Source: Leptotrichia sp. HSP-342 (GTDB taxonomy: Bacteria > Fusobacteriota > Fusobacteriia > Fusobacteriales > Leptotrichiaceae). From it: a DNA stretch of 64,000 nt. This document shows positions 2,753 to 24,673 of this stretch, piece after piece. The notes below the pieces were generated by a model. It did not search any database. It was given only the letters and a program-made list of their open reading frames with translations, and had not been told where the DNA came from. The translations under genes were made by a program, and so were the position numbers. The DNA lies in NCBI RefSeq assembly GCF_041199995.1, contig NZ_CP165646.1:930001-994000 (forward strand), in the 5' to 3' direction. Position 1 is the stretch's first letter. Each line of letters starts with the position of its first letter.

Positions 2753-4447
2753 ATGGAAAAAAATTTTAATCAAAAATGGTGGCACAAATCTGTAGTTTAC
2801 CAAATTTATCCAAAGAGTTTCAATGATACGACTGGAAGTGGAGAAGGAGATATAAGAGGAATTATTGAGAAACTTGATTATCTGAAGGAACTTGGAGTGG
2901 AAGTAATCTGGATTACTCCAATGTATAAATCTCCACAGAATGACAATGGATACGATATAAGTGACTACTACAATATTGATCCTAATTACGGAACAATGGC
3001 AGATTTTGAGGAAATGCTTACAGAAGCACATAAAAGAAATTTAAAAATAGTGATGGATATTGTTGTAAATCACTCTTCTACTGAAAATGAATGGTTTAAA
3101 AAGTCTGAAGCTGGAGATCCTGAATATAAAGATTTCTATATATGGAAAGATGCAGTTGATGGAAAAGAGCCTACAAACTGGCAATCTAAATTTGGAGGAA
3201 ATGCCTGGCAATATTCAGAAAAGAGAAGACAGTATTATCTTCACTTGTTTGATGTTACGCAAGCTGATTTAAACTGGGAAAATGAAAATGTAAGAAAAAA
3301 GGTATATGAAATGATAAAATTTTGGCTAAATAAAGGTGTGGATGGATTTAGACTGGATGTTATAAATCTTATATCAAAGGATCAGAGATTTTTAAATGAT
3401 GACGGAAGTGATACAAGATTTGTTCCTGACGGAAGAAGATTTTATACAGATGGGCCTAGAATCCATGAATTTTTGAAGGAAATGAATAAAGAAGCCTTTG
3501 GAGGAGGAGAGCTTATCACAGTGGGAGAAATGTCTTCCACAAGCCTTGATAACTGTATCAGATATTCAAATCCTGATGAAAAGGAATTATCAATGGCATT
3601 TTCATTTCATCATCTGAAGGTGGATTATCCAAATGGGGAGAAATGGGCGAAAGCACCATTTGATTTTGTGGAATTGAAAAAAATATTCTCTAAATGGCAA
3701 ATTGGAATGTATGAAGGAAATGGATGGAATGCAACTTTTTGGAATAACCATGATCAGCCAAGAGCATTATCAAGATTTGGAAATGATAAGGAATATCATA
3801 GTGAATCGGCTAAAATGCTTGCCACAGTTCTTCACGGATTACAGGGAACGCCTTACATTTATCAAGGGGAAGAATTTGGAATGACAAATCCATATTTTGA
3901 TGAGATTAGTAAATATCGTGATGTAGAATCAACTAATAATTACAAAATTTTACTTAATAAAGGATGTTCAGAAGAAGAAGCCATCGAAATCTTAATGCAA
4001 AAATCAAGAGATAATTCAAGAACGCCTGTCCAATGGAATGATTCTGAAAATGCAGGATTTACAACTGGAACTCCATGGATTGGAATACCTAAAAATTATA
4101 AGACAATTAATGCTGAAGCGGCTTTAAAAGATAAAAATTCAGTATTCTATCATTATAAAAAATTAATCGATTTAAGAAGAAATGAAGAATTGATGGTAAC
4201 AGGAAAATATGAAGACATTGATTTGGAAAACAAAAGTGTTTATGCCTATAAACGTGTTGGAGAAAAAGGAGAACTAATTGTAATTAGCAATTTCTATGGA
4301 ACAGAAGCAGAATTCGAGATGGAAGGAAATGGAATTAAAAGCTTGGAAAATGCTCAAATTTTATTATCAAATTATGAAACTAATCCTGAAATTAAAGGTG
4401 AAAAAATTATTTTGAAGCCTTATGAGTCGATTATTTTCAAAAGGTAG
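2753..4447 (+). CDS. treC: Trehalose-6-phosphate hydrolase (GH13)
   Basis: This 564-residue cytoplasmic glycoside hydrolase of family 13 should split trehalose 6-phosphate into glucose and glucose 6-phosphate. The catalytic residues are visible: nucleophile D202 in GFRLDVIN, acid/base E259 in TVGEMSS and D334 in NNHDQPR. Stretches such as GRRFYTDGPRIHEF and MAFSFHHLKVDYPNGEKW resemble Bacillus TreA more than oligo-1,6-glucosidases. The length matches TreA. No trehalose PTS transporter is next to it. No clear terminator follows: the small-lipoprotein array begins 40 bases after the stop, so read-through into it is plausible. A related alpha-glucosidase is the alternative. Confidence 0.82.
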   Translation: MEKNFNQKWWHKSVVYQIYPKSFNDTTGSGEGDIRGIIEKLDYLKELGVEVIWITPMYKSPQNDNGYDISDYYNIDPNYGTMADFEEMLTEAHKRNLKIVMDIVVNHSSTENEWFKKSEAGDPEYKDFYIWKDAVDGKEPTNWQSKFGGNAWQYSEKRRQYYLHLFDVTQADLNWENENVRKKVYEMIKFWLNKGVDGFRLDVINLISKDQRFLNDDGSDTRFVPDGRRFYTDGPRIHEFLKEMNKEAFGGGELITVGEMSSTSLDNCIRYSNPDEKELSMAFSFHHLKVDYPNGEKWAKAPFDFVELKKIFSKWQIGMYEGNGWNATFWNNHDQPRALSRFGNDKEYHSESAKMLATVLHGLQGTPYIYQGEEFGMTNPYFDEISKYRDVESTNNYKILLNKGCSEEEAIEILMQKSRDNSRTPVQWNDSENAGFTTGTPWIGIPKNYKTINAEAALKDKNSVFYHYKKLIDLRRNEELMVTGKYEDIDLENKSVYAYKRVGEKGELIVISNFYGTEAEFEMEGNGIKSLENAQILLSNYETNPEIKGEKIILKPYESIIFKR

Positions 4448-4487
4448 CTGAATTTTTTAAGGAAAATGAAAAAGGAATTGATGATAT

Positions 4488-4636
4488 ATGAAAAGAATAA
4501 TAATATTAATTATATCGGTAATGACGTTGCAAGCTGTTCCTATCTTGATGCATCAAGGGAAGAAATGAACAAAAGAGGAGTTGAGTGCAGATATAATAAA
4601 AGAGGCGGAGTTGAAAATTGTCGATATATGGATTGA
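4488..4636 (+). pseudogene. Array copy 1, frameshifted (SYLD-like head, ENC tail)
   Basis: The MKRIIILIISVM start is followed by a one-base loss next to the codon for T13 (ATGAC-GTTGCA). This puts the lipobox, SYLDASREEMNKRG head and CRYNKRGGVENCRYMD tail out of frame. As written, translation ends after 23 residues. It is the copy closest to treC. Confidence 0.8.
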
Positions 4637-4668
4637 TAATTTTAGTCATATAGAAGGAGATGATTTGT

Positions 4669-4821
4669 ATGAAAAAGTTAATAGTGCTGATATTACTGGT
4701 ATCAGTACTGGTTGTAAATTGTTCATATTTTGAAGGAGCGGAAAAAGAGCGAAGAGAGCGAGGCTGGGAATGCCGGTACAACTATAAAGGAGAAATGCAG
4801 CATTGTGGTTATATAAATTAA
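4669..4821 (+). CDS. Array lipopeptide 2 (SYFE head, QHC tail)
   Basis: This is a 50-residue lipoprotein precursor with RBS AAGGAGATGAT. The lipobox is LVVNC with Cys at 18. The head is SYFEGAEKERRERG and the tail reads WECRYNYKGEMQHCGYIN. Confidence 0.85.
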   Translation: MKKLIVLILLVSVLVVNCSYFEGAEKERRERGWECRYNYKGEMQHCGYIN

Positions 4822-4880
4822 AAAAATTAATATATGAAAGATTAATTGGGTTAAAAAACATAATAAAGGAGATGGTAAGA

Positions 4881-5030
4881 ATGAAAAACTTAGTAATTTT
4901 AGTTATTTTGATATTAACTGCTATAAGTTGTTCTTATGTGGAAAGTGGAGAAAGACAATTAAGAGAAAGAGGTTGGGAATGCCTATACAATGGTAAGGGA
5001 GAAGTTCAAGTCTGTGGATTTATAAACTAA
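4881..5030 (+). CDS. Array lipopeptide 3 (SYVE head, QVC tail)
   Basis: The precursor has 49 residues, with the start set by AAAGGAGATGG. An upstream in-frame extension exists but lacks a ribosome binding site. The lipobox is LTAISC, the head SYVESGERQLRERG and the tail LYNGKGEVQVCGFIN. Confidence 0.85.
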   Translation: MKNLVILVILILTAISCSYVESGERQLRERGWECLYNGKGEVQVCGFIN

Positions 5031-5071
5031 TAGTCTTAAATTATGTAGTATAATAAAAAGGAGATAATGAA

Positions 5072-5221
5072 ATGAAAAACTTAGCGATTTTAATTATATT
5101 AATGTTAACTGTTATAAGTTGCTCATATTTTGAAGGAGCAGAAAGAACGATGAAAGAAAGAGGATATGAGTGTATGTATACTTATAAAGGAGAACTACAG
5201 GGTTGCAATTATATAAAATAG
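5072..5221 (+). CDS. Array lipopeptide 4 (SYFE head, QGC tail)
   Basis: The precursor has 49 residues and starts MKNLAILIIL like copy 3. The lipobox is LTVISC. The head SYFEGAERTMKERG leads into MYTYKGELQGCNYIK. Its tail and the following spacer are repeated almost exactly after copies 5 and 6. Confidence 0.85.
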   Translation: MKNLAILIILMLTVISCSYFEGAERTMKERGYECMYTYKGELQGCNYIK

Positions 5222-5305
5222 ATATAATTTAGAATTTTATAAAATGCAGATTTTTTAGATAGAAGATTAATTGGGTTTGAGATAATAAAAAAGGAGATGA
5301 TATAT

Positions 5306-5458
5306 ATGAAAAGAATAATGATATTGATTGTACTAGTGTCAGTATTAGTTGTAAATTGTTCATATTTTGAGGGTGCTGAAAGGACTGAAAGAGAAAGAGG
5401 ATATGAGTGTATGTATACTTATAAAGGAGAACTACAGGGTTGCAATTATATAAAATAG
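5306..5458 (+). CDS. Array lipopeptide 5 (SYFE head, QGC tail)
   Basis: This 50-residue precursor is identical in protein sequence to copy 6. The lipobox is LVVNC, the head SYFEGAERTERERG and the tail MYTYKGELQGCNYIK. It is one unit of a recent 237-base duplication. Confidence 0.88.
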   Translation: MKRIMILIVLVSVLVVNCSYFEGAERTERERGYECMYTYKGELQGCNYIK

Positions 5459-5542
5459 ATATAATTTAGCATTTTATAAAATGCAGATTTTTTAGATAGA
5501 AGATTAATTGGGTTTGAGATAATAAAAAAGGAGATGATATAT

Positions 5543-5695
5543 ATGAAAAGAATAATGATATTGATTGTACTAGTGTCAGTATTAGTTGTAAATTGTTCAT
5601 ATTTTGAGGGTGCTGAAAGGACTGAAAGAGAAAGAGGATATGAGTGTATGTATACTTATAAAGGAGAACTACAGGGTTGCAATTATATAAAATAG
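5543..5695 (+). CDS. Array lipopeptide 6, twin of copy 5
   Basis: The 50-residue product is identical to copy 5, and the start lies exactly 237 bases after that of copy 5. The preceding spacer differs by a single base (GAATTT versus GCATTT). Confidence 0.88.
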   Translation: MKRIMILIVLVSVLVVNCSYFEGAERTERERGYECMYTYKGELQGCNYIK

Positions 5696-5778
5696 AAATA
5701 ATTTAGTATTTTAAAAACAGAGATTTTTTAAATAATAAAATTAATTGAGTTTAAAATATAAAAAGGGAGATGATTTGT

Positions 5779-5940
5779 ATGAAAAAAATAATAATATTAG
5801 TTACATTAACTGCAATGATAATGAGCTGTTCCGAGCTTGCTAGAATGGAGGAGGAATATCAGCAGGATCTTAGAGAGAGGGGACGAGAATGCATGTATAA
5901 TTATAAGGGAGAATTACAGGGGTGTAATTATATAAAATAG
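5779..5940 (+). CDS. Array lipopeptide 7 (SELA head, QGC tail)
   Basis: The precursor has 53 residues and RBS AAAGGGAGATG. The lipobox is MIMSC and the head SELARMEEEYQQDLRERG. The tail MYNYKGELQGCNYIK differs from copy 8, although the two heads are nearly identical at base level. Confidence 0.86.
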   Translation: MKKIIILVTLTAMIMSCSELARMEEEYQQDLRERGRECMYNYKGELQGCNYIK

Positions 5941-6031
5941 AGATAGTTTAGTATTTTATAAAACATAGGAAATACAGATTTTTTAGAAAGAATTAATTGA
6001 TTTCAAAATGATGATAAAGGAGATGAATTAT

Positions 6032-6193
6032 ATGAAAAAAATAATAATATTAGTTATATTAACTGCAATGATAATGAGCTGTTCTGAGCTTGCTAGAATG
6101 GAGGAGGAATATCAGCAGGATCTTAGAGAGAGGGGGATAAGATGCCGATATAACTACAAAGGAGAATTACAACATTGTGGTTATATAAATTAA
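6032..6193 (+). CDS. Array lipopeptide 8 (same head as 7, QHC tail)
   Basis: The precursor has 53 residues. Its head, SELARMEEEYQQDLRERG, is shared with copy 7. After the ERG codons the sequence switches to IRCRYNYKGELQHCGYIN, giving a clear chimera breakpoint. Confidence 0.87.
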   Translation: MKKIIILVILTAMIMSCSELARMEEEYQQDLRERGIRCRYNYKGELQHCGYIN

Positions 6194-6230
6194 TAATTAT
6201 AGCAATTATAGCATAAGGAGATAATTAATT

Positions 6231-6392
6231 ATGAAAAAAATAATAGTATTAATTGTATTACTGTTAATAGTAACTAGTTGTTCTGAACTTTCCGAATTAG
6301 AATCTGGAAGACAACAAAGAATAAAAGAAAGGGGACGGGAATGCATGTATAATTATAAGGGAGAATTACAAGGTTGTAATTATATGAAATAG
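6231..6392 (+). CDS. Array lipopeptide 9 (SELS head, QGC tail)
   Basis: The precursor has 53 residues, lipobox VTSC, head SELSELESGRQQRIKERG and tail MYNYKGELQGCNYMK. The spacer behind it carries the perfect 16-base palindrome GTATTTTATAAAATAC. Confidence 0.86.
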   Translation: MKKIIVLIVLLLIVTSCSELSELESGRQQRIKERGRECMYNYKGELQGCNYMK

Positions 6393-6487
6393 AAATGATT
6401 TAGTATTTTATAAAATACAAAAAATGCAGATTTTTTTAGATAAAAAATTAATCGAGTTTAAAATAATGAAAAAGGAGCTGAGCAAGT

Positions 6488-6652
6488 ATGAAAAAATTAA
6501 TGGTGTTGATAGTATTAACATCCGCATTAGTTGTAAGCTGTTCTTATTTTTCTGAACTTAATGAAATAGCTGAAAATGAAAAAAGAGAAAGAGGTTGGAG
6601 ATGCCGATACAACTATAGAGGTGAGATACAACATTGTGGTTATATAAATTAA
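6488..6652 (+). CDS. Array lipopeptide 10 (hybrid SYFSEL head, QHC tail)
   Basis: The precursor has 54 residues. SYFSELNEIAENEKRERG combines SYF with a SEL-like continuation, so it looks like an internal fusion of two head types. The tail is RYNYRGEIQHCGYIN and the RBS AAAAGGAGCTGAG. Confidence 0.85.
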   Translation: MKKLMVLIVLTSALVVSCSYFSELNEIAENEKRERGWRCRYNYRGEIQHCGYIN

Positions 6653-6701
6653 AGAAGAAAAGATTAATTGAGTTAAAAACATAATAAAGAAGGTGATAAG
6701 T

Positions 6702-6848
6702 ATGAAAAAAGTAGTAATTTCAGTTATTTTGATGTTAACTGCCATAAGCTGTTCATATGTAGAGGGAGGAGAAAGATTAATAAGAGAAAGGGGAGTTGAA
6801 TGTCTATATAATTATAAAGGGGAATTACAGATTTGTAATCTAAAATAA
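6702..6848 (+). CDS. Array lipopeptide 11 (SYVE head, truncated tail)
   Basis: The precursor has 48 residues, lipobox LTAISC and head SYVEGGERLIRERG. The tail LYNYKGELQICNLK keeps both cysteines but lacks the usual YIN/YIK ending. Confidence 0.84.
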   Translation: MKKVVISVILMLTAISCSYVEGGERLIRERGVECLYNYKGELQICNLK

Positions 6849-6942
6849 AGATAAATTTAGTATTTTGAAAAATACAGGAAATACTGATTCTTTAGATAAA
6901 AGGTTAATTGGGTTTAAAATACTGAAAAAGGAGTCGAATTAC

Positions 6943-7104
6943 ATGAAAAAAGTAATAATTTTGATTGTGTTAGCAATGGCTACAATAAGATGTACTGAAC
7001 TTGCAGAACTTAATGACGAAGAAGAAAGAATAAGAAATGAGAGAGGAGCTGAATGCAGATATAATAAAAGAGGCGGAGTTGAGAATTGCCGATATATGGA
7101 TTAA
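6943..7104 (+). CDS. Array lipopeptide 12 (TELA head, ENC tail)
   Basis: The precursor has 53 residues. The lipobox ATIRC has Arg before Cys, which is unfavourable for signal peptidase II. The head is TELAELNDEEERIRNERG and the tail CRYNKRGGVENCRYMD. Confidence 0.82.
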   Translation: MKKVIILIVLAMATIRCTELAELNDEEERIRNERGAECRYNKRGGVENCRYMD

Positions 7105-7139
7105 TAATTATAAGTTATACAAGAAAAGGAGATTATAAT

Positions 7140-7283
7140 ATGAAGAAATTAGAGATTTTATTTATATTAATGATGACAGTTGCAAGTTGTTCATATCTTG
7201 ATGGAAGTGAAGCTCGAAGAAGAGGGCGGGAATGCAGATATAATAAAAGGGGTGGACTTGAAAGTTGCCGTTTTATAAATTAG
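7140..7283 (+). CDS. Array lipopeptide 13 (SYLD head, ESC tail)
   Basis: This 47-residue precursor is among the shortest. The lipobox is TVASC, the head SYLDGSEARRRG and the tail CRYNKRGGLESCRFIN. Its tail plus the start of copy 14 recur almost unchanged at copies 38-39. Confidence 0.86.
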   Translation: MKKLEILFILMMTVASCSYLDGSEARRRGRECRYNKRGGLESCRFIN

Positions 7284-7315
7284 TAATTGAAAAAAATAAT
7301 AAAGGGATGGTGTAT

Positions 7316-7477
7316 ATGAAAAAAGTAATAGCGCTGATTATATTGTCATTAACAATGGTAAGTTGTTCTGAACTTGCTGAAATGGAAGCAAGAAGTCAAC
7401 AAAGAAGGATGGAAAGAGGACGGCAATGCAGATATAACTATAAAGGGGAAGTACAGCATTGTGGCTATATAAATTAA
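7316..7477 (+). CDS. Array lipopeptide 14 (SELA head, QHC tail)
   Basis: The precursor has 53 residues and RBS AAAGGGATGG. The lipobox is LTMVSC, the head SELAEMEARSQQRRMERG and the tail CRYNYKGEVQHCGYIN. Confidence 0.86.
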   Translation: MKKVIALIILSLTMVSCSELAEMEARSQQRRMERGRQCRYNYKGEVQHCGYIN

Positions 7478-7513
7478 TAATTAAAATAATCGTAGTATAG
7501 GGAGATGGTTTAT

Positions 7514-7666
7514 ATGAAGAAAATAATGATACTGACAGTACTAATATTATTACTAATTGTAAATTGTTCATATTTTGAAGGTGCTGAAAGGGCTGAAAGA
7601 GAAAGAGGCTGGGAATGCCGATACAACTATAAAGGAGAAGTTCAAGTCTGTGGTTATATAAATTAA
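7514..7666 (+). CDS. Array lipopeptide 15 (SYFE head, QVC tail)
   Basis: The precursor has 50 residues, lipobox LLIVNC, head SYFEGAERAERERG and tail CRYNYKGEVQVCGYIN, which joins a YKG stem to the QVC ending. Confidence 0.86.
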   Translation: MKKIMILTVLILLLIVNCSYFEGAERAERERGWECRYNYKGEVQVCGYIN

Positions 7667-7702
7667 TAATTAAAACAACCGTAGCATAGGGAGATGATTA
7701 GT

Positions 7703-7864
7703 ATGAAAAAAATAATAGCATTGATTATATTGCTAGCAAGTGTAATGAGCTGCTCTGAACTTGCCGAAATGGAAGCGAAAAGTCAACAGATAAAAAGGGA
7801 AAGAGGTTGGGAATGTATGTATAACTATAAGGGAGAGATACAGGGTTGCAACTATATAAAATAG
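7703..7864 (+). CDS. Array lipopeptide 16 (SELA head, QGC tail)
   Basis: The precursor has 53 residues, lipobox SVMSC, head SELAEMEAKSQQIKRERG (shared with copy 43) and tail MYNYKGEIQGCNYIK. Confidence 0.86.
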   Translation: MKKIIALIILLASVMSCSELAEMEAKSQQIKRERGWECMYNYKGEIQGCNYIK

Positions 7865-7956
7865 ACATAGTTTAGCCTTTTATGAAATACGGGAAATACA
7901 GATTTTTAGATAAAAAGTTAATTGAGTTTAAAAGAACGATAAAGGAGATGGTAAGC

Positions 7957-8106
7957 ATGAAAAAATTGGTGATTTTAATTATATTAATCTTAACTGCTAT
8001 AAGTTGCTCATATATGGAAGGAGGAGAAAGATTAATAAGAGAAAGAGGACGACGATGCAGATATAACTACAAAGGAGAGGTACAACATTGTGAGTTTATA
8101 AACTAA
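7957..8106 (+). CDS. Array lipopeptide 17 (SYME head, QHC tail)
   Basis: The precursor has 49 residues and RBS AAAGGAGATGG, with an in-frame extension upstream that lacks an RBS. The lipobox is LTAISC, the head SYMEGGERLIRERG and the tail CRYNYKGEVQHCEFIN. Confidence 0.86.
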   Translation: MKKLVILIILILTAISCSYMEGGERLIRERGRRCRYNYKGEVQHCEFIN

Positions 8107-8152
8107 TATATATCTAATATTAGAGGAAAATATAATGAGGGAGATAGATTGC

Positions 8153-8302
8153 ATGAAAAAAATAATAATTTTGATTATATTAGTAATATCTACTGTAAGC
8201 TGTTCATATTTTGAAGGAGCTGAAAGAGCAGAAAAAGAAAGGGGTCGGGAATGTAGGTATAACTATAAAGGAGAATTACAGGGTTGTTATTATACAAGAT
8301 AG
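8153..8302 (+). CDS. Array lipopeptide 18 (SYFE head, QGC variant tail)
   Basis: The precursor has 49 residues, lipobox STVSC and head SYFEGAERAEKERG. The tail CRYNYKGELQGCYYTR has a divergent last four residues. Confidence 0.85.
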   Translation: MKKIIILIILVISTVSCSYFEGAERAEKERGRECRYNYKGELQGCYYTR

Positions 8303-8385
8303 AAATTATTTAATGTTTTAAAATATGTAGAGAGTATAAATTTTTTATTTGATGGAACTTAAAATATGATAAAGGAGTTAATAAT

Positions 8386-8529
8386 ATGAAAAAATTAGCA
8401 ATTTTAGTTGTATTAATGATGATAGTTGCGAGTTGTTCGTATCTTGATGGAAGTGAAGCTAGAAGAAGAGGTTGGGAATGCCTGTATAATGGCAAGGGAG
8501 AAATTCAAGTTTGTGGTTATGTAAACTAA
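8386..8529 (+). CDS. Array lipopeptide 19 (SYLD head, QVC tail)
   Basis: The precursor has 47 residues, lipobox IVASC, head SYLDGSEARRRG (as in copies 13 and 25) and tail CLYNGKGEIQVCGYVN. Confidence 0.86.
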   Translation: MKKLAILVVLMMIVASCSYLDGSEARRRGWECLYNGKGEIQVCGYVN

Positions 8530-8580
8530 TAATTGTAATTTAGTAAATCATATAGAAAAGTGATAAAGGAGATAGGTTGT

Positions 8581-8742
8581 ATGAAAAAAATAATAATTTT
8601 GATTATATTGCTAGCAAATGTAATGAGCTGTTCTGAGCTTGCCGAGTTGGAAGCAGGACATCAGCAAAGGATGAGGGAAAGAGGGATGGAATGTATGTAC
8701 AATTATAAGGGAGAAGTGCAAGGTTGTAATTATATAAGATAG
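8581..8742 (+). CDS. Array lipopeptide 20 (SELA head, QGC tail)
   Basis: The precursor has 53 residues, lipobox NVMSC and RBS AAAGGAGATAGG. The head SELAELEAGHQQRMRERG is shared with copy 29, but the tail is CMYNYKGEVQGCNYIR. Confidence 0.86.
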   Translation: MKKIIILIILLANVMSCSELAELEAGHQQRMRERGMECMYNYKGEVQGCNYIR

Positions 8743-8806
8743 AAATTATTTATTTAATAAAACTTGATAATTAAACAAAGAAAATGTGCTAAAGAAGGTG
8801 ATATGT

Positions 8807-8956
8807 GTGAAAAAAATAATGATTTTAGTTGTTTTAATGATGTCAGTATCAAATTGTACTGCTTTTAAAATATCGGAACAAATGGAAAGGGAACGTGGGA
8901 AAGCATGTACTTATGATTATAAAGGTAATTATAAATATTGTGAATACGAAAGGTAA
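8807..8956 (+). CDS. Array lipopeptide 21 (TAFK head, KYC tail, GTG start)
   Basis: The precursor has 49 residues and starts with GTG behind AGAAGGTGATAT. The lipobox is SVSNC, the head TAFKISEQMERERG and the tail CTYDYKGNYKYCEYER, a tail class seen only here and in copy 31. Confidence 0.84.
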   Translation: MKKIMILVVLMMSVSNCTAFKISEQMERERGKACTYDYKGNYKYCEYER

Positions 8957-9005
8957 TGAAACAATCAAAAAATTTATAAAAATGACGATAAAGGAGATAG
9001 CAAAA

Positions 9006-9155
9006 ATGAAAAAATTGGCGATTTTAATTATATTAATGTTAACAGTTATGAGTTGTTCATATATGGAAGGTGGAGAAAGATTAATAAGAGAAAGAGGCAT
9101 GAGATGCAGATACAATTATAAAGGAGAATTACAGCACTGTGGCTTTATAAACTAA
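9006..9155 (+). CDS. Array lipopeptide 22 (SYME head, QHC tail)
   Basis: The precursor has 49 residues, lipobox LTVMSC, head SYMEGGERLIRERG and tail CRYNYKGELQHCGFIN. Confidence 0.86.
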   Translation: MKKLAILIILMLTVMSCSYMEGGERLIRERGMRCRYNYKGELQHCGFIN

Positions 9156-9205
9156 TCATGATTTGTGTAATATTATCAAGAAATGTAATAAGGGAGATGG
9201 TATGT

Positions 9206-9358
9206 GTGAAAAAAATAATGGTGTTAGCGGTATTAATAATGACATTGGTTGTAAGCTGTTCTTATCTTGAAGAAGCAGAAAAAGAGCAGAGAGAAAGAGG
9301 GGTTGAATGTAGATATGGTAAAAGAGGCGGTCTTGAAAACTGCCGTTATATAAATTAA
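9206..9358 (+). CDS. Array lipopeptide 23 (SYLE head, ENC tail, GTG start)
   Basis: The precursor has 50 residues and starts with GTG behind AGGGAGATGG. The lipobox is LVVSC and the head SYLEEAEKEQRERG. The tail CRYGKRGGLENCRYIN carries G where the other copies have N. Confidence 0.84.
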   Translation: MKKIMVLAVLIMTLVVSCSYLEEAEKEQRERGVECRYGKRGGLENCRYIN

Positions 9359-9394
9359 TAGTTTAGAAAATTATATTAAAGGAGTTGATATTAT

Positions 9395-9559
9395 ATGAAA
9401 AAATTAATAATTTTAGTCATACCAGTATCGTTACTAATTATGAGCTGTACCGAACTTGCAGATATGGAAGCAAGGAGACAACAGAGAATAGAAGAAAGAG
9501 GAGTTGAATGCAGATATAATAAAAGAGGAGGAGTTGAAAATTGCCGTTATGCAAATTAA
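9395..9559 (+). CDS. Array lipopeptide 24 (TELA head, ENC tail)
   Basis: The precursor has 54 residues, lipobox LIMSC, head TELADMEARRQQRIEERG and tail CRYNKRGGVENCRYAN. Its tail and AACAGCTAG spacer recur after copy 28. Confidence 0.86.
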   Translation: MKKLIILVIPVSLLIMSCTELADMEARRQQRIEERGVECRYNKRGGVENCRYAN

Positions 9560-9589
9560 CAGCTAGAAAAAATAAAGGAGAAAATAAAG

Positions 9590-9733
9590 ATGAAGAAATT
9601 GATAATTTTAGCTATATTAATAATGACTGTTATAAGCTGTTCATATCTTGATGGAAGTGAAGCCCAAAGAAGAGGGCGACGATGTAGATACAATTATAAA
9701 GGAGAGGTACAGCATTGCGGATATATAAACTAA
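9590..9733 (+). CDS. Array lipopeptide 25 (SYLD head, QHC tail)
   Basis: The precursor has 47 residues, lipobox TVISC, head SYLDGSEAQRRG and tail CRYNYKGEVQHCGYIN. With copies 13 and 19 it shows the SYLD head joined to three different tails. Confidence 0.86.
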   Translation: MKKLIILAILIMTVISCSYLDGSEAQRRGRRCRYNYKGEVQHCGYIN

Positions 9734-9811
9734 AAAAATATATAGAAAACATATTTCGTTCATTAAGGGGGTTAGTTGAATTTAAAAAAGATGTTGATGG
9801 AGCTGATATGT

Positions 9812-9967
9812 ATGAAAAAAATATTGATGTTGATGATACTGGTATTAGCATTAGTTACAAGCTGTTCGTATTTTGAAAGTGCTGAAAGGATTGAAAGGGA
9901 ACGGGGAGGAGTTGAATGCAGATATAATAAAAGGGGTGGGGTTGAGGATTGCCGTTATGCAAATTAG
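9812..9967 (+). CDS. Array lipopeptide 26 (SYFE head, EDC tail)
   Basis: The precursor has 51 residues, lipobox LVTSC and head SYFESAERIERERG. An additional Gly precedes VEC. The tail is CRYNKRGGVEDCRYAN. RBS ATGGAGCTGAT sets the start rather than an upstream in-frame TTG. Confidence 0.84.
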   Translation: MKKILMLMILVLALVTSCSYFESAERIERERGGVECRYNKRGGVEDCRYAN

Positions 9968-9997
9968 TGGCTAGAAAAAATAAGGGAGCTGATATAT

Positions 9998-10147
9998 ATG
10001 AAAAAATTATTAATTTTAGTTATCTTAATGATGACCACAATAAGCTGTTCTTATATGGAAGGTGGAGAAAGACAAATGAGAGAGCGAGGCTGGGAATGCA
10101 GATATAATGGTAAAGGAGAAGTACAACATTGTGGTTTTATAAACTAA
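9998..10147 (+). CDS. Array lipopeptide 27 (SYME head, QHC tail)
   Basis: The precursor has 49 residues, lipobox TTISC, head SYMEGGERQMRERG and tail CRYNGKGEVQHCGFIN. Confidence 0.86.
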   Translation: MKKLLILVILMMTTISCSYMEGGERQMRERGWECRYNGKGEVQHCGFIN

Positions 10148-10200
10148 ATAGCTATAATTGTATGTAATATCATAGAAAAATATAAAAAGGAGATGACAAT

Positions 10201-10368
10201 ATGAAAAAGATACTGATATTAATTATATTAGTAACGATAACTATTTTTAATTGTACAGAAAGAGATTTGATGATAATGAGAGATGCGGACAGAGAAATGA
10301 ATGAAAGAGGGCTTGAATGCAGATACAATAAAAGGGGCGGGGTTGAAAATTGCCGTTATGCAAATTAA
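10201..10368 (+). CDS. Array lipopeptide 28 (TERD head, ENC tail)
   Basis: The precursor has 55 residues, lipobox TIFNC and the long head TERDLMIMRDADREMNERG. The tail is CRYNKRGGVENCRYAN. The head is shared with copy 38. Confidence 0.86.
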   Translation: MKKILILIILVTITIFNCTERDLMIMRDADREMNERGLECRYNKRGGVENCRYAN

Positions 10369-10398
10369 CAGCTAGAAAAAATAAAGGAGATGGTAAAG

Positions 10399-10560
10399 AT
10401 GAAAAAAATGATAGCATTAATTGTATTATTATTAACAGTGGCAAGCTGTTCTGAACTTGCTGAGCTGGAAGCGGGGCATCAGCAAAGAATGAGAGAAAGA
10501 GGTATGAGATGCAGATATAATTATAAAGGAGAATTACAGCATTGTGGCTATATAAATTAA
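10399..10560 (+). CDS. Array lipopeptide 29 (SELA head, QHC tail)
   Basis: The precursor has 53 residues, lipobox TVASC, head SELAELEAGHQQRMRERG as in copy 20 and tail MRCRYNYKGELQHCGYIN. Confidence 0.86.
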   Translation: MKKMIALIVLLLTVASCSELAELEAGHQQRMRERGMRCRYNYKGELQHCGYIN

Positions 10561-10630
10561 TAAAAAAGCTGAATCTAAAAATTATAAATTAATAATTATA
10601 GCAATCATAATGCAAGGAGATGATTTTTAT

Positions 10631-10783
10631 ATGAAAAAAATATTGATGTTGATAATATTAGTATTGGTATTGGTTGTAAATTGTTCGTATTTCGAAGGTG
10701 CTGAAAGAGCCAGAAGAGAACGTGGAAGAGAGTGTACATACAATAGTAGAGGAGAAGCACAAGTTTGTGGTTATATAAAATAA
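10631..10783 (+). CDS. Array lipopeptide 30 (SYFE head, QVC tail)
   Basis: The precursor has 50 residues, lipobox LVVNC, head SYFEGAERARRERG and tail CTYNSRGEAQVCGYIK, a tail shared with copy 43. Confidence 0.86.
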   Translation: MKKILMLIILVLVLVVNCSYFEGAERARRERGRECTYNSRGEAQVCGYIK

Positions 10784-10837
10784 GATTTTCCATTTGTAAA
10801 GGAGAAACAAGAAATTATATGGAAGGAGATGAAGAAA

Positions 10838-10999
10838 ATGAAAAAAATGATAGCATTAATTATATTACTGGTAACTGTAATGAGCTGTACTGAACTTACA
10901 GAAATGGAAGCAAGAAGACAACAGAGAATAAGAGAAAAAGGGCAGGTATGCACTTATGATTATAAAGGTAATTATAAATATTGTGAATATGAAAGATAA
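10838..10999 (+). CDS. Array lipopeptide 31 (TELT head, KYC tail)
   Basis: The precursor has 53 residues, lipobox TVMSC and head TELTEMEARRQQRIREKG. EKG replaces ERG. The tail CTYDYKGNYKYCEYER is identical to that of copy 21. Confidence 0.85.
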   Translation: MKKMIALIILLVTVMSCTELTEMEARRQQRIREKGQVCTYDYKGNYKYCEYER

Positions 11000-11064
11000 T
11001 AAAATTAGAAATTTTTATAAAAAAATTGAATAAATAAAAAATAAGAAGAATGGAGTTGATAAGT

Positions 11065-11214
11065 GTGAAGAAAATAATATTATTACTAACATTATTAATA
11101 TTGATATCAAGCTGTACTGCATTTGAAATAGCAAATCAAATGGAAAAGGAGAGAGGTCGAGAATGTAGATATAATTATAAAGGAGAAGTGCAAAATTGTG
11201 GCTATATAAATTAA
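11065..11214 (+). CDS. Array lipopeptide 32 (TAFE head, QNC tail, GTG start)
   Basis: The precursor has 49 residues with a GTG start behind ATGGAGTTGAT. The lipobox is LISSC, the head TAFEIANQMEKERG and the tail CRYNYKGEVQNCGYIN. Confidence 0.85.
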   Translation: MKKIILLLTLLILISSCTAFEIANQMEKERGRECRYNYKGEVQNCGYIN

Positions 11215-11304
11215 AAAATTAACGAACAAAAGACGCAGAAAATGTAATTTTTATGACTAAAGAGATTAATTGAATTCAAAATAATAGAAAAGGAGCTGAT
11301 ATAT

Positions 11305-11454
11305 ATGAGGAAATTAATGTTACTATTAATGTTGTTGACATTGATATCAGGCTGTACTGCATTTGAAATAGCAAATCAAATGGAAAAGGAGAGAGGAGTT
11401 GAATGTAGGTATAATAAACGGGGAGGGGTTGAGAATTGTCGATATATGGAATAA
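11305..11454 (+). CDS. Array lipopeptide 33 (TAFE head, ENC tail)
   Basis: The precursor has 49 residues, starts MRKLMLLL and has lipobox LISGC. It shares the TAFEIANQMEKERG head with copy 32 but carries CRYNKRGGVENCRYME. Confidence 0.86.
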   Translation: MRKLMLLLMLLTLISGCTAFEIANQMEKERGVECRYNKRGGVENCRYME

Positions 11455-11478
11455 AATTTATTAAAGGAGATGACTTGA

Positions 11479-11649
11479 ATGAAAAGGTGGTTAGTATTGA
11501 TTGTATTGTTATCATTAGCAGTAATAAGCTGTACCGAAGCAGACAGAGAATTGTGGAGAGAAGTTGATAGAGAATATAAGGAAAGAGGCAGGGAGTGTAC
11601 ATACAATCATAAGGGAGAGTTAATAGGAAGTTGTGATTATATAAACTAA
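11479..11649 (+). CDS. Array lipopeptide 34 (TEAD head, GSC tail)
   Basis: At 56 residues this is the longest copy. The lipobox is AVISC and the head TEADRELWREVDREYKERG. The tail CTYNHKGELIGSCDYIN has 11 rather than 10 residues between the cysteines, the only intact exception. Confidence 0.84.
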   Translation: MKRWLVLIVLLSLAVISCTEADRELWREVDREYKERGRECTYNHKGELIGSCDYIN

Positions 11650-11721
11650 AAAAGTCATAAATATTAGTAATTTTTATTTATAAGGTAGCTATAAGAAATT
11701 ATACTGAGTGGAGATGGTAGT

Positions 11722-11874
11722 ATGAAAAAATTAATGGTGTTGATAGTATTAATATCAGTATTAGTTGTAAGTTGTTCTTATTTTGAGGAAGCAGAAAAAG
11801 AGCGAAGAGATAGAGGCAGAGAATGCAGATACAATAAAAGGGGTGGACTTGAAAGTTGCCGTTATATAAATTAG
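11722..11874 (+). CDS. Array lipopeptide 35 (SYFE head, ESC tail)
   Basis: The precursor has 50 residues, lipobox LVVSC, head SYFEEAEKERRDRG and tail CRYNKRGGLESCRYIN. The spacer in front of it is nearly identical to the one before copy 37. Confidence 0.86.
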   Translation: MKKLMVLIVLISVLVVSCSYFEEAEKERRDRGRECRYNKRGGLESCRYIN

Positions 11875-11907
11875 CAGTAAAAAAATATGTTGGAGGAGAG
11901 GATAAAT

Positions 11908-12057
11908 ATGAAAAAATTAGCAATTTTACTTATATTAATAATAACAATTGCAAGCTGTGCTGATATTATGGCTTCAAGAGAACATATGGAGCAAAGAGGC
12001 AGAGAATGTAGATACAATTATAAAGGAGAAGTGCAGAGTTGTGATTATATAAACTAA
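11908..12057 (+). CDS. Array lipopeptide 36 (ADIM head, QSC tail)
   Basis: The precursor has 49 residues, lipobox TIASC, head ADIMASREHMEQRG and tail CRYNYKGEVQSCDYIN. Only the decayed copy 44 shares this head. Confidence 0.85.
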   Translation: MKKLAILLILIITIASCADIMASREHMEQRGRECRYNYKGEVQSCDYIN

Positions 12058-12131
12058 AAAAGTCATAAATATTAGTAATTTTTATTTATAAGATAGTTAT
12101 AGGAAATTATACTGAAATGGAGATGGTAAAT

Positions 12132-12293
12132 ATGAAAAAAATAATAATTCTGTTTATACTAGGATTAATTGTTAGTTGTACAGCAGAAGACATGAATTTA
12201 ATAAGAGAGGCAAGAAGAGAAAGAGAGGAAAGAGGATACCAATGCAGATATAATGGTAAAGGAGAAGTACAGCATTGCGGATATATAAATTAA
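12132..12293 (+). CDS. Array lipopeptide 37 (TAED head, QHC tail)
   Basis: The precursor has 53 residues and a short signal, with the lipobox LIVSC ending at Cys 16. The head is TAEDMNLIREARREREERG and the tail CRYNGKGEVQHCGYIN. Confidence 0.86.
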   Translation: MKKIIILFILGLIVSCTAEDMNLIREARREREERGYQCRYNGKGEVQHCGYIN

Positions 12294-12401
12294 AAAATAT
12301 TATAAAAACTTTAACATTACAAAATGAATAAAAAATATAATTTTTTGATTAAAGGAATTAATTAAATTCAAAGAATAATAATGAAAAAAGGAGATGGTAA
12401 T

Positions 12402-12569
12402 ATGAAAAAGATAATAATATTAGCTATATTAGTAATGACAACTATTTTTAACTGTACAGAAAGAGATTTGATGATAATGAGAGAAGCAGATAGAGAAATG
12501 AATGAAAGAGGACGGGAATGCAGACATAATAAAAGGGGTGGACTTGAAAGTTGCCGTTTTATAAATTAG
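12402..12569 (+). CDS. Array lipopeptide 38 (TERD head, ESC tail)
   Basis: The precursor has 55 residues, lipobox TIFNC, head TERDLMIMREADREMNERG and tail CRHNKRGGLESCRFIN. From this tail into copy 39 the DNA matches the copy 13-14 junction. Confidence 0.86.
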   Translation: MKKIIILAILVMTTIFNCTERDLMIMREADREMNERGRECRHNKRGGLESCRFIN

Positions 12570-12601
12570 TAATTGAAAAAAATAATAAAGGGATGATGTA
12601 T

Positions 12602-12763
12602 ATGAAAAAAGTAATAGCGCTGATTATATTGTCATTAACAATGGTGAGTTGTTCTGAACTTGCTGAGTTAGAAGCAGGAAGACAGCAAAGATTAAGGGAA
12701 AGAGGCTGGGAATGTAGATACAATGGCAGAGGAGAAGTACAGCATTGTGGTTATATAAATTAA
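12602..12763 (+). CDS. Array lipopeptide 39 (SELA head, QHC tail)
   Basis: The precursor has 53 residues and the same MKKVIALIILSLTMVSC signal as copy 14. The head is SELAELEAGRQQRLRERG and the tail CRYNGRGEVQHCGYIN. Confidence 0.86.
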   Translation: MKKVIALIILSLTMVSCSELAELEAGRQQRLRERGWECRYNGRGEVQHCGYIN

Positions 12764-12825
12764 TAAAAAAATGTATGAAACTGTAAATTAATAATATACT
12801 GTTATAGTGCAAGGAGAGAGTAAAT

Positions 12826-12975
12826 ATGAAAAAGACATTGATTTTAGCAATATTGATGATGACGGTTGTAAGTTGCTCATATTTTGAGGGTGCTGAAAGA
12901 GCTGAAAAGGAAAGAGGTAGAATATGCACATATAATAATAAAGGGGATTTCCAAGGGTGCCGTTATGCAAATTAA
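12826..12975 (+). CDS. Array lipopeptide 40 (SYFE head, hybrid QGC/CRYAN tail)
   Basis: The precursor has 49 residues, lipobox TVVSC and head SYFEGAERAEKERG. The tail CTYNNKGDFQGCRYAN joins a QGC stem to the CRYAN end normally found on ENC tails. Confidence 0.85.
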   Translation: MKKTLILAILMMTVVSCSYFEGAERAEKERGRICTYNNKGDFQGCRYAN

Positions 12976-13009
12976 TAATTAGAAATTTATAATAAAGGAG
13001 ATAGTTTAT

Positions 13010-13174
13010 ATGAAAAAAGTATTGGTGTTAGCAGTATTAATGACGATAATTGCAAGTTGTACGGCTGAAGATAGAATGTTATGGAATGAAGTTCAAAGAG
13101 AACGGGGGGAAAGAGGAGTTGAATGCAGATATAATAAAAGAGGTGGAGTTGAGAATTGTCGATATATGGATTGA
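13010..13174 (+). CDS. Array lipopeptide 41 (TAED head, ENC tail)
   Basis: The precursor has 54 residues, lipobox IIASC and head TAEDRMLWNEVQRERGERG, in which the ERG element is doubled. The tail is CRYNKRGGVENCRYMD. Confidence 0.85.
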   Translation: MKKVLVLAVLMTIIASCTAEDRMLWNEVQRERGERGVECRYNKRGGVENCRYMD

Positions 13175-13207
13175 TAATTATAAAGTTATAGCAAAGGAGT
13201 GATTATT

Positions 13208-13369
13208 ATGAAAAAAATAATAGTATTGATTATATTGTTATTAACAGTAATGAGCTGTTCTGAACTTACTGAGTTGGAAGCTGGAAGACAGCAGAGATTA
13301 AGAGAAAGAGGTCGAGAATGCAGGTACAATTATAAGGGAGAGTTACAGCATTGTGGATATATAAATTAA
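13208..13369 (+). CDS. Array lipopeptide 42 (SELT head, QHC tail)
   Basis: The precursor has 53 residues, lipobox TVMSC, head SELTELEAGRQQRLRERG and tail CRYNYKGELQHCGYIN. Confidence 0.86.
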   Translation: MKKIIVLIILLLTVMSCSELTELEAGRQQRLRERGRECRYNYKGELQHCGYIN

Positions 13370-13468
13370 GAAATATTGTGGAAAGTTTAGCATTATAAAG
13401 AAAATATAATTTTTTTGATTAAAGGAATTAATTTGTTTTAAAAAATAAATAAAAAGGAGAGATTCTAT

Positions 13469-13630
13469 ATGAAAAAAATAATAGCACTGATTATATTGTT
13501 ATTAACAGTAATGAGTTGTTCTGAACTTTCTGAAATGGAAGCAAAAAGTCAACAAATAAAAAGGGAAAGAGGATATGAATGTACATATAACAGTAGAGGA
13601 GAAGCACAAGTTTGTGGTTATATAAAATAA
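13469..13630 (+). CDS. Array lipopeptide 43 (SELS head, QVC tail)
   Basis: The precursor has 53 residues, lipobox TVMSC, head SELSEMEAKSQQIKRERG and tail CTYNSRGEAQVCGYIK. Confidence 0.86.
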   Translation: MKKIIALIILLLTVMSCSELSEMEAKSQQIKRERGYECTYNSRGEAQVCGYIK

Positions 13631-13700
13631 AAAACTGTAATATAAATAATTATTTATTTAAAAACAAAAACAAAAAATTATACTAAAGGAGATAATATTT

Positions 13701-13816
13701 ATGAAGAAGATAGTAATATTAGTTATATCATACTGTTAATTATGAATTATGCTGATATTGAGGCTTCAAGAAAACGTATAAGGAGTGTGCACTTTTAATT
13801 CTAGAAAAAGACTGCA
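13701..13816 (+). pseudogene. Array copy 44, decayed (ADIE head)
   Basis: The RBS and MKKIVILVIS start remain, but a deletion and frameshift give a stop after 12 codons. In another frame NYADIEASRKR matches the ADIM head with the lipid Cys changed to Tyr. The tail is not readable. This is the only badly decayed copy and it sits near the downstream end. Confidence 0.75.
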
Positions 13817-13909
13817 ATAGAAAGATAACAAAATAATTAGAAATTAAAAAATGTTATATTGGTATTATAATTTGTGAAGTAAAGAATTGTGATAATGGAG
13901 GAAGCAATT

Positions 13910-14062
13910 ATGAAAAAGATCATAGTTTTGATTGTATCGGCAGTACTAATTGTGAGTTGTTCATATTTTGAAGGTGCGGATAGGCAAATAAGAGAACGAG
14001 GAATTGAATGCAGATATAATAAAAGAGGTGGAGTTGAAAACTGCCGGTTAGGAGAAAATTAA
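13910..14062 (+). CDS. Array lipopeptide 45 (SYFE head, altered ENC tail), coupled to cinA
   Basis: The precursor has 50 residues and RBS ATGGAGGAAG. The lipobox is LIVSC and the head SYFEGADRQIRERG. The tail CRYNKRGGVENC ends RLGEN instead of RYMD. The changed end contains GGTTAGGAGAA, which acts as the ribosome binding site of cinA starting one base after the stop, so translation of the two is probably coupled. Confidence 0.86.
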   Translation: MKKIIVLIVSAVLIVSCSYFEGADRQIRERGIECRYNKRGGVENCRLGEN

Positions 14063-14063
14063 A

Positions 14064-14834
14064 ATGAAAACAGAAATTATATGTGTTGGAACAGAATTAT
14101 TAGTCGGAGATATTGTAAATACAAATGCACAGTATATTTCAGCAAAACTTACAAATATTGGTATTGATTTGTATTATCAAACTACGGTTGGGGATAATTA
14201 TGGAAGACTTATGGAGTGTCTTGAAAATGCTTTTAAAAGGGTTGATTTAGTAATCACTACTGGAGGGCTTGGGCCTACAATTGATGATATTACAAAGGAA
14301 GTTGTAGCTAATTATTTTGGAGAAGAGCTAGAAGTAATTGAGCGGTACTATGACTTAATTGTAAAAAAATACAATGAAAGAGGTTTTGGAGAAGTAGCTT
14401 CTGGCGGGAGAAAAGAAGCTTCAATTTTAAAAAATTCAAAATTGCTAGAAAATGAAGTTGGTCTTGCACCAGGATTTTTTTATGAAAAGGATAATAAAAA
14501 AATAATAGTATTGCCAGGACCTCCTAGAGAAATGGCTTGGATGGTAGATAATCAAGTTTTACCACTTTTAAAGCAGTATTCAAATGATATTTTACTAATG
14601 AAAACTCTTGAAATAAGGGGAGTTCCAGAAGGAAAAATTGACGACAGGCTAAAAGATTATTTTGAAATGTCAAATCCAACTGTTGCTCCGTATGCGAAAG
14701 AAGGTTGTGTTCACGTAAGAATTGCCATGAAAGGTGATAGAGGGAGTACAGATTATCTGACTGCGGAAATTGATAAAATTTTGAATGAAATTATGGAAAT
14801 CTATCCTCAAGCGTCAGAAATTAAAGAAAATTGA
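14064..14834 (+). CDS. cinA: CinA-family protein, N-terminal (MoaB-like) part only
   Basis: This 256-residue protein begins ICVGTELLVGDIVNTNAQYIS and contains TTGGLGPTIDD and VLPGPPREM, the landmarks of the CinA N-terminal MoaB-like domain. A KH-like segment follows to about residue 250. CinA of this type cleaves ADP-ribose or NMN-like substrates in NAD salvage. Full-length CinA is about 410 residues. The C-terminal nicotinamide-nucleotide amidohydrolase domain is absent and no remnant is visible downstream. Either a short form is natural here or the gene was shortened, perhaps with the nearby IS arrival. It is probably co-transcribed with the lipopeptide array. Confidence 0.8.
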   Translation: MKTEIICVGTELLVGDIVNTNAQYISAKLTNIGIDLYYQTTVGDNYGRLMECLENAFKRVDLVITTGGLGPTIDDITKEVVANYFGEELEVIERYYDLIVKKYNERGFGEVASGGRKEASILKNSKLLENEVGLAPGFFYEKDNKKIIVLPGPPREMAWMVDNQVLPLLKQYSNDILLMKTLEIRGVPEGKIDDRLKDYFEMSNPTVAPYAKEGCVHVRIAMKGDRGSTDYLTAEIDKILNEIMEIYPQASEIKEN

Positions 14835-15146
14835 TAAATTTGTAAAATATTATTGATTTTATTAAAAAAAGTCTATAGACAATTTAATTAATGGAGTAAA
14901 GAATTAATAAAATCAAGTTAACTATATTTAAATAAGGTAAATCTATTTTATTTTAGGTCTTTGTCAAGAGTGGGGGTAAAAATTTAAAGTAAAGAAACAA
15001 GAATATAAGTTTTAAGATAACTGATGAAGAAAAAGAAAAGATATACGTTGCTTTAGATGAAATAGGTGGAACTAGAACGGATGCCTTACTAAAATTATTA
15101 GGATCATAAATTGTAATATTAATTGCGACATTTTACCAAATTTTTT
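14835..15146. other. Intergenic region with inverted repeat and gene fragment
   Basis: A perfect 13-base inverted repeat (TTGATTTTATTAA at 14853 and TTAATAAAATCAA at 14904) encloses a GTCTATAGAC palindrome. Bases 14993-15109 encode an orphan fragment containing NISFKITDEEKEKIYVALDE and then TRTDALLKLLGS, without a start codon. It looks like the end of a small regulatory gene of mobile DNA. Confidence 0.55.
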
Positions 15147-24493: not shown

Positions 24494-24673
24494 CTAGTAG
24501 ACAATATTTCCGTATCTATCCTTGCAATAATACTCACCATTAGCCCTCTTAAAACATCTTCTACCTTCTTCTCTATCTCTTTGATTCACCCTATCCCAGT
24601 AACTTGGACTTAGCAGTTCACATCCCACGACAGACATGGCAAGTATGATTGTGAGTAAAATTTTCTTAAACAT
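24494..24673 (-). CDS. Small lipoprotein, duplicate of the one at 23371
   Basis: A 59-residue precursor with signal MFKKILLTIILAMSVVGC. The head ELLSPSYWDRVNQRDREEG has diverged completely from its sister, while the last 20 residues (from RCFKRANG to GNIVY) are nearly identical, D-to-E being the only change. This is again a variable head on a conserved two-cysteine tail. The promoter, spacer and terminator are duplicated too. Confidence 0.82.
   Translation of the reverse strand: MFKKILLTIILAMSVVGCELLSPSYWDRVNQRDREEGRRCFKRANGEYYCKDRYGNIVY

Follow-up and report, generated by a model that had tools for sequence, protein, structure and literature searches.

The Opa proteins of Neisseria are eight-stranded outer-membrane barrels with reassorted variable segments and repeat-based phase switching. 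According to one account (PMC13183285), several loci per genome (9-12) carry strain-specific, evolving allele repertoires of this surface protein, and its hypervariable regions 1 and 2 are associated. We analysed a tandem array of small-lipoprotein genes in a stretch of 64,000 nucleotides (nt) from Leptotrichia sp. HSP-342 (contig NZ_CP165646.1, positions 930,001 to 994,000), called the window in the following. Like the opa genes, the array comprises several intact paralogs with reassorted variable segments. It differs in gene number (43 in tandem versus 9-12 loci) and in that helix and hairpin are uncorrelated, whereas the Opa hypervariable regions are associated. No barrel was found here, but a helix and a two-strand hairpin are predicted for a protein of 53 residues.

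The Lpl proteins of Staphylococcus aureus are far larger than the array proteins, and the Lpl Pfam family gave no match at E <=1 in four array proteins. Common to both is a tandem cluster of paralogous lipoprotein genes (PMC4470592). Llp of phage T5 is also a small outer-membrane lipoprotein, but it is described as a periplasmic phage gene product (PMC9586334); neither a phage-record search with one array member as query nor a PDB sequence search gave an Llp match.

The array has 43 intact genes and 2 broken copies, all on the + strand and flanked by an alpha-amylase gene and cinA, and its intact members span positions 4669-14062 (six-frame script search and a looser pattern in the array region). 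The proteins are 47-56 amino acids long, each with three Cys residues (n=43). Comparison of the members demonstrates that the signal plus helix and the C-x10-C hairpin vary independently, with a break at the ERG hinge, which is new here. The most compelling new finding is a hairpin that acts like a swappable cassette, its edge falling on the border predicted for the fold.

Independent variation of two gene pieces

Segment distances among the 43 members were compared with 500 permutations each. Signal and helix distances correlate (r 0.34, 0/500), as do those of hairpin and C-tail (r 0.32, 0/500) and of hairpin and the downstream 30 bases (r 0.20, 0/500). No correlation exists between helix and hairpin within the array (r 0.02, 144/500), and r was 0.07 both for signal versus hairpin (29/500) and for helix versus C-tail (44/500). 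In an analysis of 3-codon blocks, which included 42 of the 43 members (m34 was dropped for its spacing), neighbouring blocks correlate up to codons -6..-4. The correlation is absent between -6..-4 and -3..-1 (r -0.07, 418/500) and from -3..-1 to 0..+2 (r 0.05, 108/500), weak on to +3..+5 (r 0.09, 21/500), and strong beyond (r 0.34-0.46, 0/500; r 0.41 for +3..+5 versus +6..+8). This loss and regain places the exchange point within about 6 codons around the hinge RGxxCxY, and the block distances show a break between the pieces at codons -4 to +2 around the first hairpin Cys.

The AlphaFold2 model of m42 (53 residues, input with 76 sequences) has a helix at 2-34 and strands at 36-40 and 46-51, with a mean predicted local distance difference test score (pLDDT) of 86.8. 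The break at the ERG hinge coincides with the helix/hairpin border of this model (helix end 34, strand start 36). The array members (rows m02 to m44 are based on the tail-pattern script over six frames), the flanking genes and a dispersed relative are as follows.

4488..4636 (+) broken copy 1; frame disrupted in the signal-peptide region, hairpin still readable
4669..4821 (+) m02
4881..5030 (+) m03
5072..5221 (+) m04; hairpin DNA same as m05 and m06
5306..5458 (+) m05; F0557 counterpart carries another hairpin
5543..5695 (+) m06; copy of m05 in tandem, spaced by 237 nt
5779..5940 (+) m07; shares its first piece with m08, but not its hairpin
6032..6193 (+) m08
6231..6392 (+) m09; LPAM_1 over cut-off
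6488..6652 (+) m10
6702..6848 (+) m11
6943..7104 (+) m12; Arg before lipobox Cys, atypical
7140..7283 (+) m13; F0557 counterpart with other hairpin, window hairpin 58/60 bases as m38
7316..7477 (+) m14
7514..7666 (+) m15; F0557 counterpart differs chiefly in hairpin
7703..7864 (+) m16
7957..8106 (+) m17
8153..8302 (+) m18
8386..8529 (+) m19
8581..8742 (+) m20
8807..8956 (+) m21; GTG start
9006..9155 (+) m22
9206..9358 (+) m23; GTG start
9395..9559 (+) m24
9590..9733 (+) m25
9812..9967 (+) m26
9998..10147 (+) m27
10201..10368 (+) m28
10399..10560 (+) m29
10631..10783 (+) m30
10838..10999 (+) m31
11065..11214 (+) m32; GTG start, shares the mature helix protein of m33 but has another hairpin
11305..11454 (+) m33
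11479..11649 (+) m34; sole C-x11-C member
11722..11874 (+) m35
11908..12057 (+) m36
12132..12293 (+) m37
12402..12569 (+) m38
12602..12763 (+) m39
12826..12975 (+) m40
13010..13174 (+) m41
13208..13369 (+) m42; modelled with AlphaFold2
13469..13630 (+) m43
13701..13836 (+) decayed relic copy
13910..14062 (+) m44, last member
2753..4447 (+) left flank, alpha-amylase family gene (Pfam)
14064..14834 (+) right flank, CinA-type gene (MoCF_biosynth and CinA_KH)
24494..24673 (-) single dispersed relative of C-x9-C type, between GNAT-like and argH-like genes (neighbours named by eye)

The members m04 and m05 have all 60 hairpin bases in common and different first pieces. In a set of 163 natural sequences, namely the 43 members and the best 120 of 250 hits (thus top-scoring and non-random), 81 helix pieces and 78 hairpins are joined in 137 different ways. 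The most frequent hairpin is found with 17 different helix pieces, and two of the helix pieces are each combined with 8 hairpins. The same helix with different hairpins was also seen by eye among more distant relatives of a second type (described below) in the loci L023, L040 and L041.

Among the genomes compared, Leptotrichia sp. oral taxon 879 F0557 is the nearest to the window, with 47% of the sampled 31-letter words in common; its CinA locus is on record NZ_KI271293.1. In this draft a large part of the array occupies the same site, interrupted by contig ends, and 32 members were obtained from two contigs. Counterparts of m02-m05, m07, m08, m10-m28, m30 and m44 follow in the same order, with five own members interspersed. 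Pairs were formed for the 27 of the 32 members with a colinear window counterpart, leaving out F42_04, F42_06, F42_09, F13_10 and F13_22. An assembly artefact is unlikely and was rejected, because this independent draft keeps the gene order. Five array members are letter-identical to database proteins, which probably come from the window's own chromosome.

In five of the 27 pairs (m05, m08, m13, m15, m18) the first piece is kept (DNA identity 0.93-1.00) and the hairpin differs (0.75-0.87). The m14 pair is the reverse case, with an identical hairpin and differences in the first piece (0.92) and upstream (0.73). For m15, 12 of 60 hairpin bases are changed; the signal has about 4 changes and the helix 1, and the sequence from the second Cys through to the start of the next gene is unchanged. 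The change in m05 extends up to the second Cys, followed by matching sequence through the stop codon, while in m13 it continues into the next spacer. Putative donors of the hairpins exist on the window side, since m05 matches m04 in 60/60 bases and m13 matches m38 in 58/60; the F0557 counterpart of m05 has only 48/60 hairpin bases in common with the m04/m05 hairpin of the window.

Ratios of nonsynonymous to synonymous substitution rates (dN/dS), pooled over the 27 pairs, were 0.27 for the signal, 0.12 for the helix and 0.23 for the hairpin. The 21 pairs in which no piece is replaced gave 0.21, 0.06 and 0.11, from small counts (e.g., 4 synonymous and 1 nonsynonymous change in the helix). Among paralogs the values were 0.35, 0.33 and 0.16, with synonymous sites near saturation (0.58-0.69), which argues for an old array that has nevertheless not been homogenised. 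As judged from these codon comparisons, purifying selection acts on both pieces. A diversification driven by positively selected substitutions was rejected, since dN/dS is below 1.

In Leptotrichia hongkongensis JMUB5056 (L009) the amylase gene runs to 9913 and cinA begins at 10001, with 87 bases and no array member between them. Thus the array was gained in one lineage or lost in the other. The F0557 counterpart of m29 (L001, 297-506) has a reading frame altered at its start, and slippage in the A-rich start regions that many members have might switch genes on and off.

Array layout, protein features and relatives

A sequence-only reading had described 43 intact and 2 broken tandem paralogs in one orientation, with no terminator or other gene between them. 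This was borne out: the array interior is without any other gene, and no terminator-like site was found in 4300-15500, versus 1.5 expected from shuffles. Intergenic gaps are 24-108 nt, with the exception of 279 nt around the relic. The tail pattern R[G/K]..C..C near a stop, searched in all six frames, occurs at 44 places in the window, 43 of them in the array region (including the broken first copy). The remaining one is an unrelated 17-codon frame; apart from it, neither strand of the window has the pattern outside the array. Relaxing the pattern within the array region gave one further member, with EKG instead of ERG. As that reading had stated, the tail is C-x10-C with one x11 (42/43, m34 being the exception). 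A GGAG-type ribosome binding site had been claimed for all members; GGAG itself is present <=16 nt upstream of the start in 39 of them, and the other four have GGGA or AGGTG. The ERG-like hinge before the hairpin is exactly ERG in 36/43 members. Translation starts at ATG in 40 members and at GTG in 3. The stop codon of m44 and the cinA start are 1 base apart, and the cinA ribosome site, as read from the sequence, likely lies inside m44.

A scan of 4300-15500 gave 102 promoter-like matches versus 68.6 in shuffles, which is uninformative in this AT-rich DNA. Of 26 matches listed (>=10 matching positions), 19 are on the minus strand and repeat with the gene units; this excess could be due to chance in AT-rich repeats or to antisense start sites.

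Amplification, to which diversification had been attributed, is visible as a tandem duplication around m05/m06 (237-nt repeat, 95%). Exchange of the two pieces at the hinge comes in addition. The m05 and m06 proteins are identical, and the 43 members comprise 42 distinct proteins with one identical pair.

A basic N-terminus, a hydrophobic stretch and a lipobox Cys, the general lipoprotein criterion, are found in the array proteins. The residue preceding the first Cys is S, N or G in 42 of the 43 members, and V or I is at -3 in 35. LPAM_1 was the only Pfam family to pass its cut-off, in one of the four array proteins scanned. These features agree with the lipoprotein-type signal recognised earlier, and lipidation of the array proteins is predicted.

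Variability of the hairpin was determined for 94 distinct hairpins; their selection for C-x10-C means that neither Cys can vary in this set. Among the other positions, G6 is invariant, while Y2 is present in 91/94 and N3 in 84/94. Positions +1, +10 and +12 vary (1.60, 2.46 and 2.22 bits) and covary, as 0/300 shuffles reach their mutual information, a value inflated by related sequences. By strand alternation these three positions would share one face, away from the Cys face.

Intact relatives, as singles and small clusters, occur in 10 of 13 Leptotrichia genomes and in one related genus. C-x10-C singles lie between GAPN-like and class B phosphatase-like genes (named by eye) in six genomes (L003-L007, L014). 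Relatives of the second type (C-x8/9-C, many with a DxxGN tail next) are single or in clusters of up to five. For one of these, AlphaFold2 predicted helices at 2-20 and 23-35 and strands at 39-42 and 48-51 (mean pLDDT 75.3; predicted template modelling score, pTM, 0.37). As for the dispersed relative in the window, relatives are found near an argH-like gene in congeners too (L020, L024, L025).

Profile A4, which has 42 rows, all of them second-type relatives, matched 20 of 98 genomes from the phylum at E <=1e-4, including 11 of 13 in the genus. Within the genus, G013 matched in the signal part only, G010 had one broken and one signal-only match, and G006 and G008 had none; an intact C-x10-C single is present in G010 (L003). 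Without the signal-only G013, and with this single of G010, the number of 10/13 results. Outside the genus, near-full-length intact matches at this threshold were obtained only in G042 (3 matches), and the others were broken or N-terminal. A4 also matches 26 array-region rows of G001 (E 1.3e-9 to 8.6e-5), a score due in part to the signal peptide. The mature parts of 161 array-type and 120 second-type sequences align end to end with P 1.4e-4 at a probability of only 26% (reversed-sequence control, P 0.72). Two small Cys-pair lipoproteins of other genera (G020, G045) may, from their sequences, be distant relatives. Profile A1 matched 32 of 33 genomes of the bacterial family at E <=0.01, and among the matches listed many were weak and signal-only. 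Database searches (E <=0.01) gave 250 array-type and 1276 second-type proteins; for the best 120 of the latter, all organisms shown were Leptotrichia. Labels among the matches listed were 'hypothetical protein', 'lipoprotein' and once 'type IV pilin'.

EexN genes are defined by their position beside conjugation genes. EexN proteins resemble the array family as small lipoproteins with two further Cys, and EexN was among the nearest models when one array and four related proteins were compared with NCBIfam, where none passed the cut-off. NF033894 gave weak near-full-length matches to two of these five proteins (E 0.0091 and 0.014; 15.3 and 15.9 bits versus the cut-off of 33). The best family relatives reach 21 bits and array members about 15 (array genes of G001 <=15.0), and in a profile comparison the mature parts did not match four EexN-like domains from Leptotrichia (P 0.72). 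EexN membership was rejected on these grounds. No conjugation genes lie beside the array, where the immediate flanks are amylase and cinA; the genome beyond these flanks was not searched. The EexN cut-off is passed by the N-terminal domain of Leptotrichia lipoproteins of about 211-215 residues (L031-L034), present in 9/13 genomes, and no conjugation genes were seen by eye in these 3-kb loci.

That no described family has this plan, as the sequence-only reading had assumed, agrees with the scans against Pfam (four array proteins), NCBIfam (one array and four related proteins) and PADLOC (76 members), none of which named one. In the scans made, this is a real, unusual and undescribed protein family. 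No paper on such variation in Leptotrichia was found by title in the open-licence PubMed Central literature.

Possible functions of the array

We tentatively favour, at somewhat less than an even chance, the view that the array provides a repertoire of hairpins on the cell surface, whose variety is maintained through recombination at the ERG hinge. This would follow an Opa-like logic, with many intact loci, each holding another combination, reassorted again and again. Signal and predicted helix form the first piece and the predicted C-x10-C beta-hairpin the second, and short-tract gene conversion together with unequal crossing-over would reassort them. The lipoproteins would be displayed at the outer membrane, where the variable hairpin positions, +1, +10 and +12 above all, would meet varying partners outside the cell. 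A further step, a combinatorial recognition repertoire in which hairpin cassettes of about 60 bases are copied by short-tract conversion and the strain's own hairpin set decides which phages, bacteriocins, neighbours or host ligands are met, is possible but doubtful. If a surface-hairpin repertoire is indeed present, it would be a compact natural system that diversifies a hairpin of about 16 residues on a helical stalk in 43 copies per genome, by cassette exchange at a predicted protein-domain boundary. It would also give a role to an undescribed Leptotrichia family and offer long-read strain typing and a tractable case of repertoire evolution.

Several observations weigh against such a repertoire. 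The m18 pair is the weakest of the replaced pairs, as its signal differs too. No exact donor for the F0557 hairpins was found in the sequences compared (best other match of 60: m05 50, m13 54, m15 52, m08 52, m18 51), so that we can only infer gene conversion. In dispersed second-type relatives helix and hairpin are correlated (G007, n=28, r 0.34, 0/500; G009, n=20, r 0.45, 1/500), so that free shuffling is demonstrated within the array but not across the family as a whole. Mosaics would also arise from recombination alone, even if diversity were not selected for, and purifying rather than diversifying selection is unexpected for immune-driven antigens. The pTM of the m42 model is only 0.41, and a Foldseek search of the model against the PDB gave 34 matches, none at E <=0.001, so no solved structure is alike; the PDB sequence search had 2 matches at E <=1, both over the signal part, and neither search is informative. 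The most variable position of the hairpin piece is -2 (2.52 bits), which belongs to the Cys face by strand alternation, and +4 (1.76 bits, at the turn) and +8 (1.91 bits, mostly V, L, I) vary too, so that the variation is spread beyond one face.

The earlier proposal of a disulfide-closed hairpin is supported for the hairpin, since the two tail Cys are on opposite strands in both AlphaFold2 models. Its closure is doubtful, because canonical disulfide enzymes were not found: DsbA, DsbB and Thioredoxin_4 had 0 matches each in the 13 Leptotrichia genomes (E <=0.001), and four VKOR matches were all below the cut-off (20.3-23.0 versus 27.5 bits). These results also speak against the repertoire as outlined. 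In 14 control genomes the same models matched in 8 (DsbA), 6 (DsbB), 9 (Thioredoxin_4) and 3 (VKOR). A divergent enzyme or uncatalysed oxidation is possible. The conserved Cys pair beside the apparent lack of canonical enzymes poses a testable question on envelope redox in the genus.

A repertoire for immunity or exclusion is unlikely. Here lipoproteins on either side of the outer membrane would each jam or shield a phage or bacteriocin receptor, as T5 Llp does with FhuA, and their variety would track that of the attackers. The repertoire itself and its strain-to-strain differences are in line with this, and small phage lipoproteins can jam receptors (PMC9586334). Four PHROGs families without named function match 12, 3, 1 and 1 of 76 members, all weakly (phrog_8801 for the 12, best E 3.1e-4). 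However, with one member as query, neither 50,697 phage records nor 72,556 plasmid records gave a match (E <=0.1) and none was confirmed in viral contigs, PADLOC anti-phage models matched 0/76 members at E <=0.01, the EexN cut-off was missed, and no other gene lies inside the array. A phage or plasmid origin is disfavoured as well, with no match for the one query and weak PHROGs matches only.

The array may instead raise the amount of one structural envelope lipoprotein through its copies, with mosaics as by-products of crossing-over between adjacent genes. Such a dose effect, which we consider rather unlikely, would fit the purifying selection on both pieces, the framework common to the copies, and a single orientation without terminator-like sites, as for one long transcript. 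It is at odds with 42 distinct proteins among 43, with the near-saturated synonymous sites of the paralogs (0.58-0.69), which indicate an old array that was not homogenised, and with the concentration of variation at particular hairpin positions.

Improbable is a thiol or metal function, in which the Cys pair would stay reduced and form an envelope site for metal, haem or redox activity, with the copies adding capacity. The pair is present in 43/43 members and invariant in the 76-row alignment (whose rows are search hits), and the failure to find DsbA, DsbB and Thioredoxin_4, with VKOR below cut-off, would suit reduced thiols. But no other invariant residue of the usual metal-ligand kind exists, the predicted hairpin sets the Cys on facing strands, as a disulfide needs, and the combinatorial diversity is left unexplained. 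Neutral or selfish tandem expansion without function is very improbable: the 237-nt duplication is visible, but just 2 of 45 copies are broken, and dN/dS well below 1 in all three regions reveals purifying selection.

Further observations concern other parts of the window. Just right of cinA (15330-15921, minus strand) are two open reading frames that resemble pieces of an IS30-type transposase; a similar piece is present in an F0557 contig (L011, 184-612). At 36829-42191 six hydrophobic proteins of 271-303 amino acids are encoded in a row, apparently paralogous as judged by eye. A 762-residue protein (47724-50012) has, by eye, an AAA ATPase-like part and a C-terminal part like the formylglycine-generating enzyme, and its neighbour is a protein of 589 residues.

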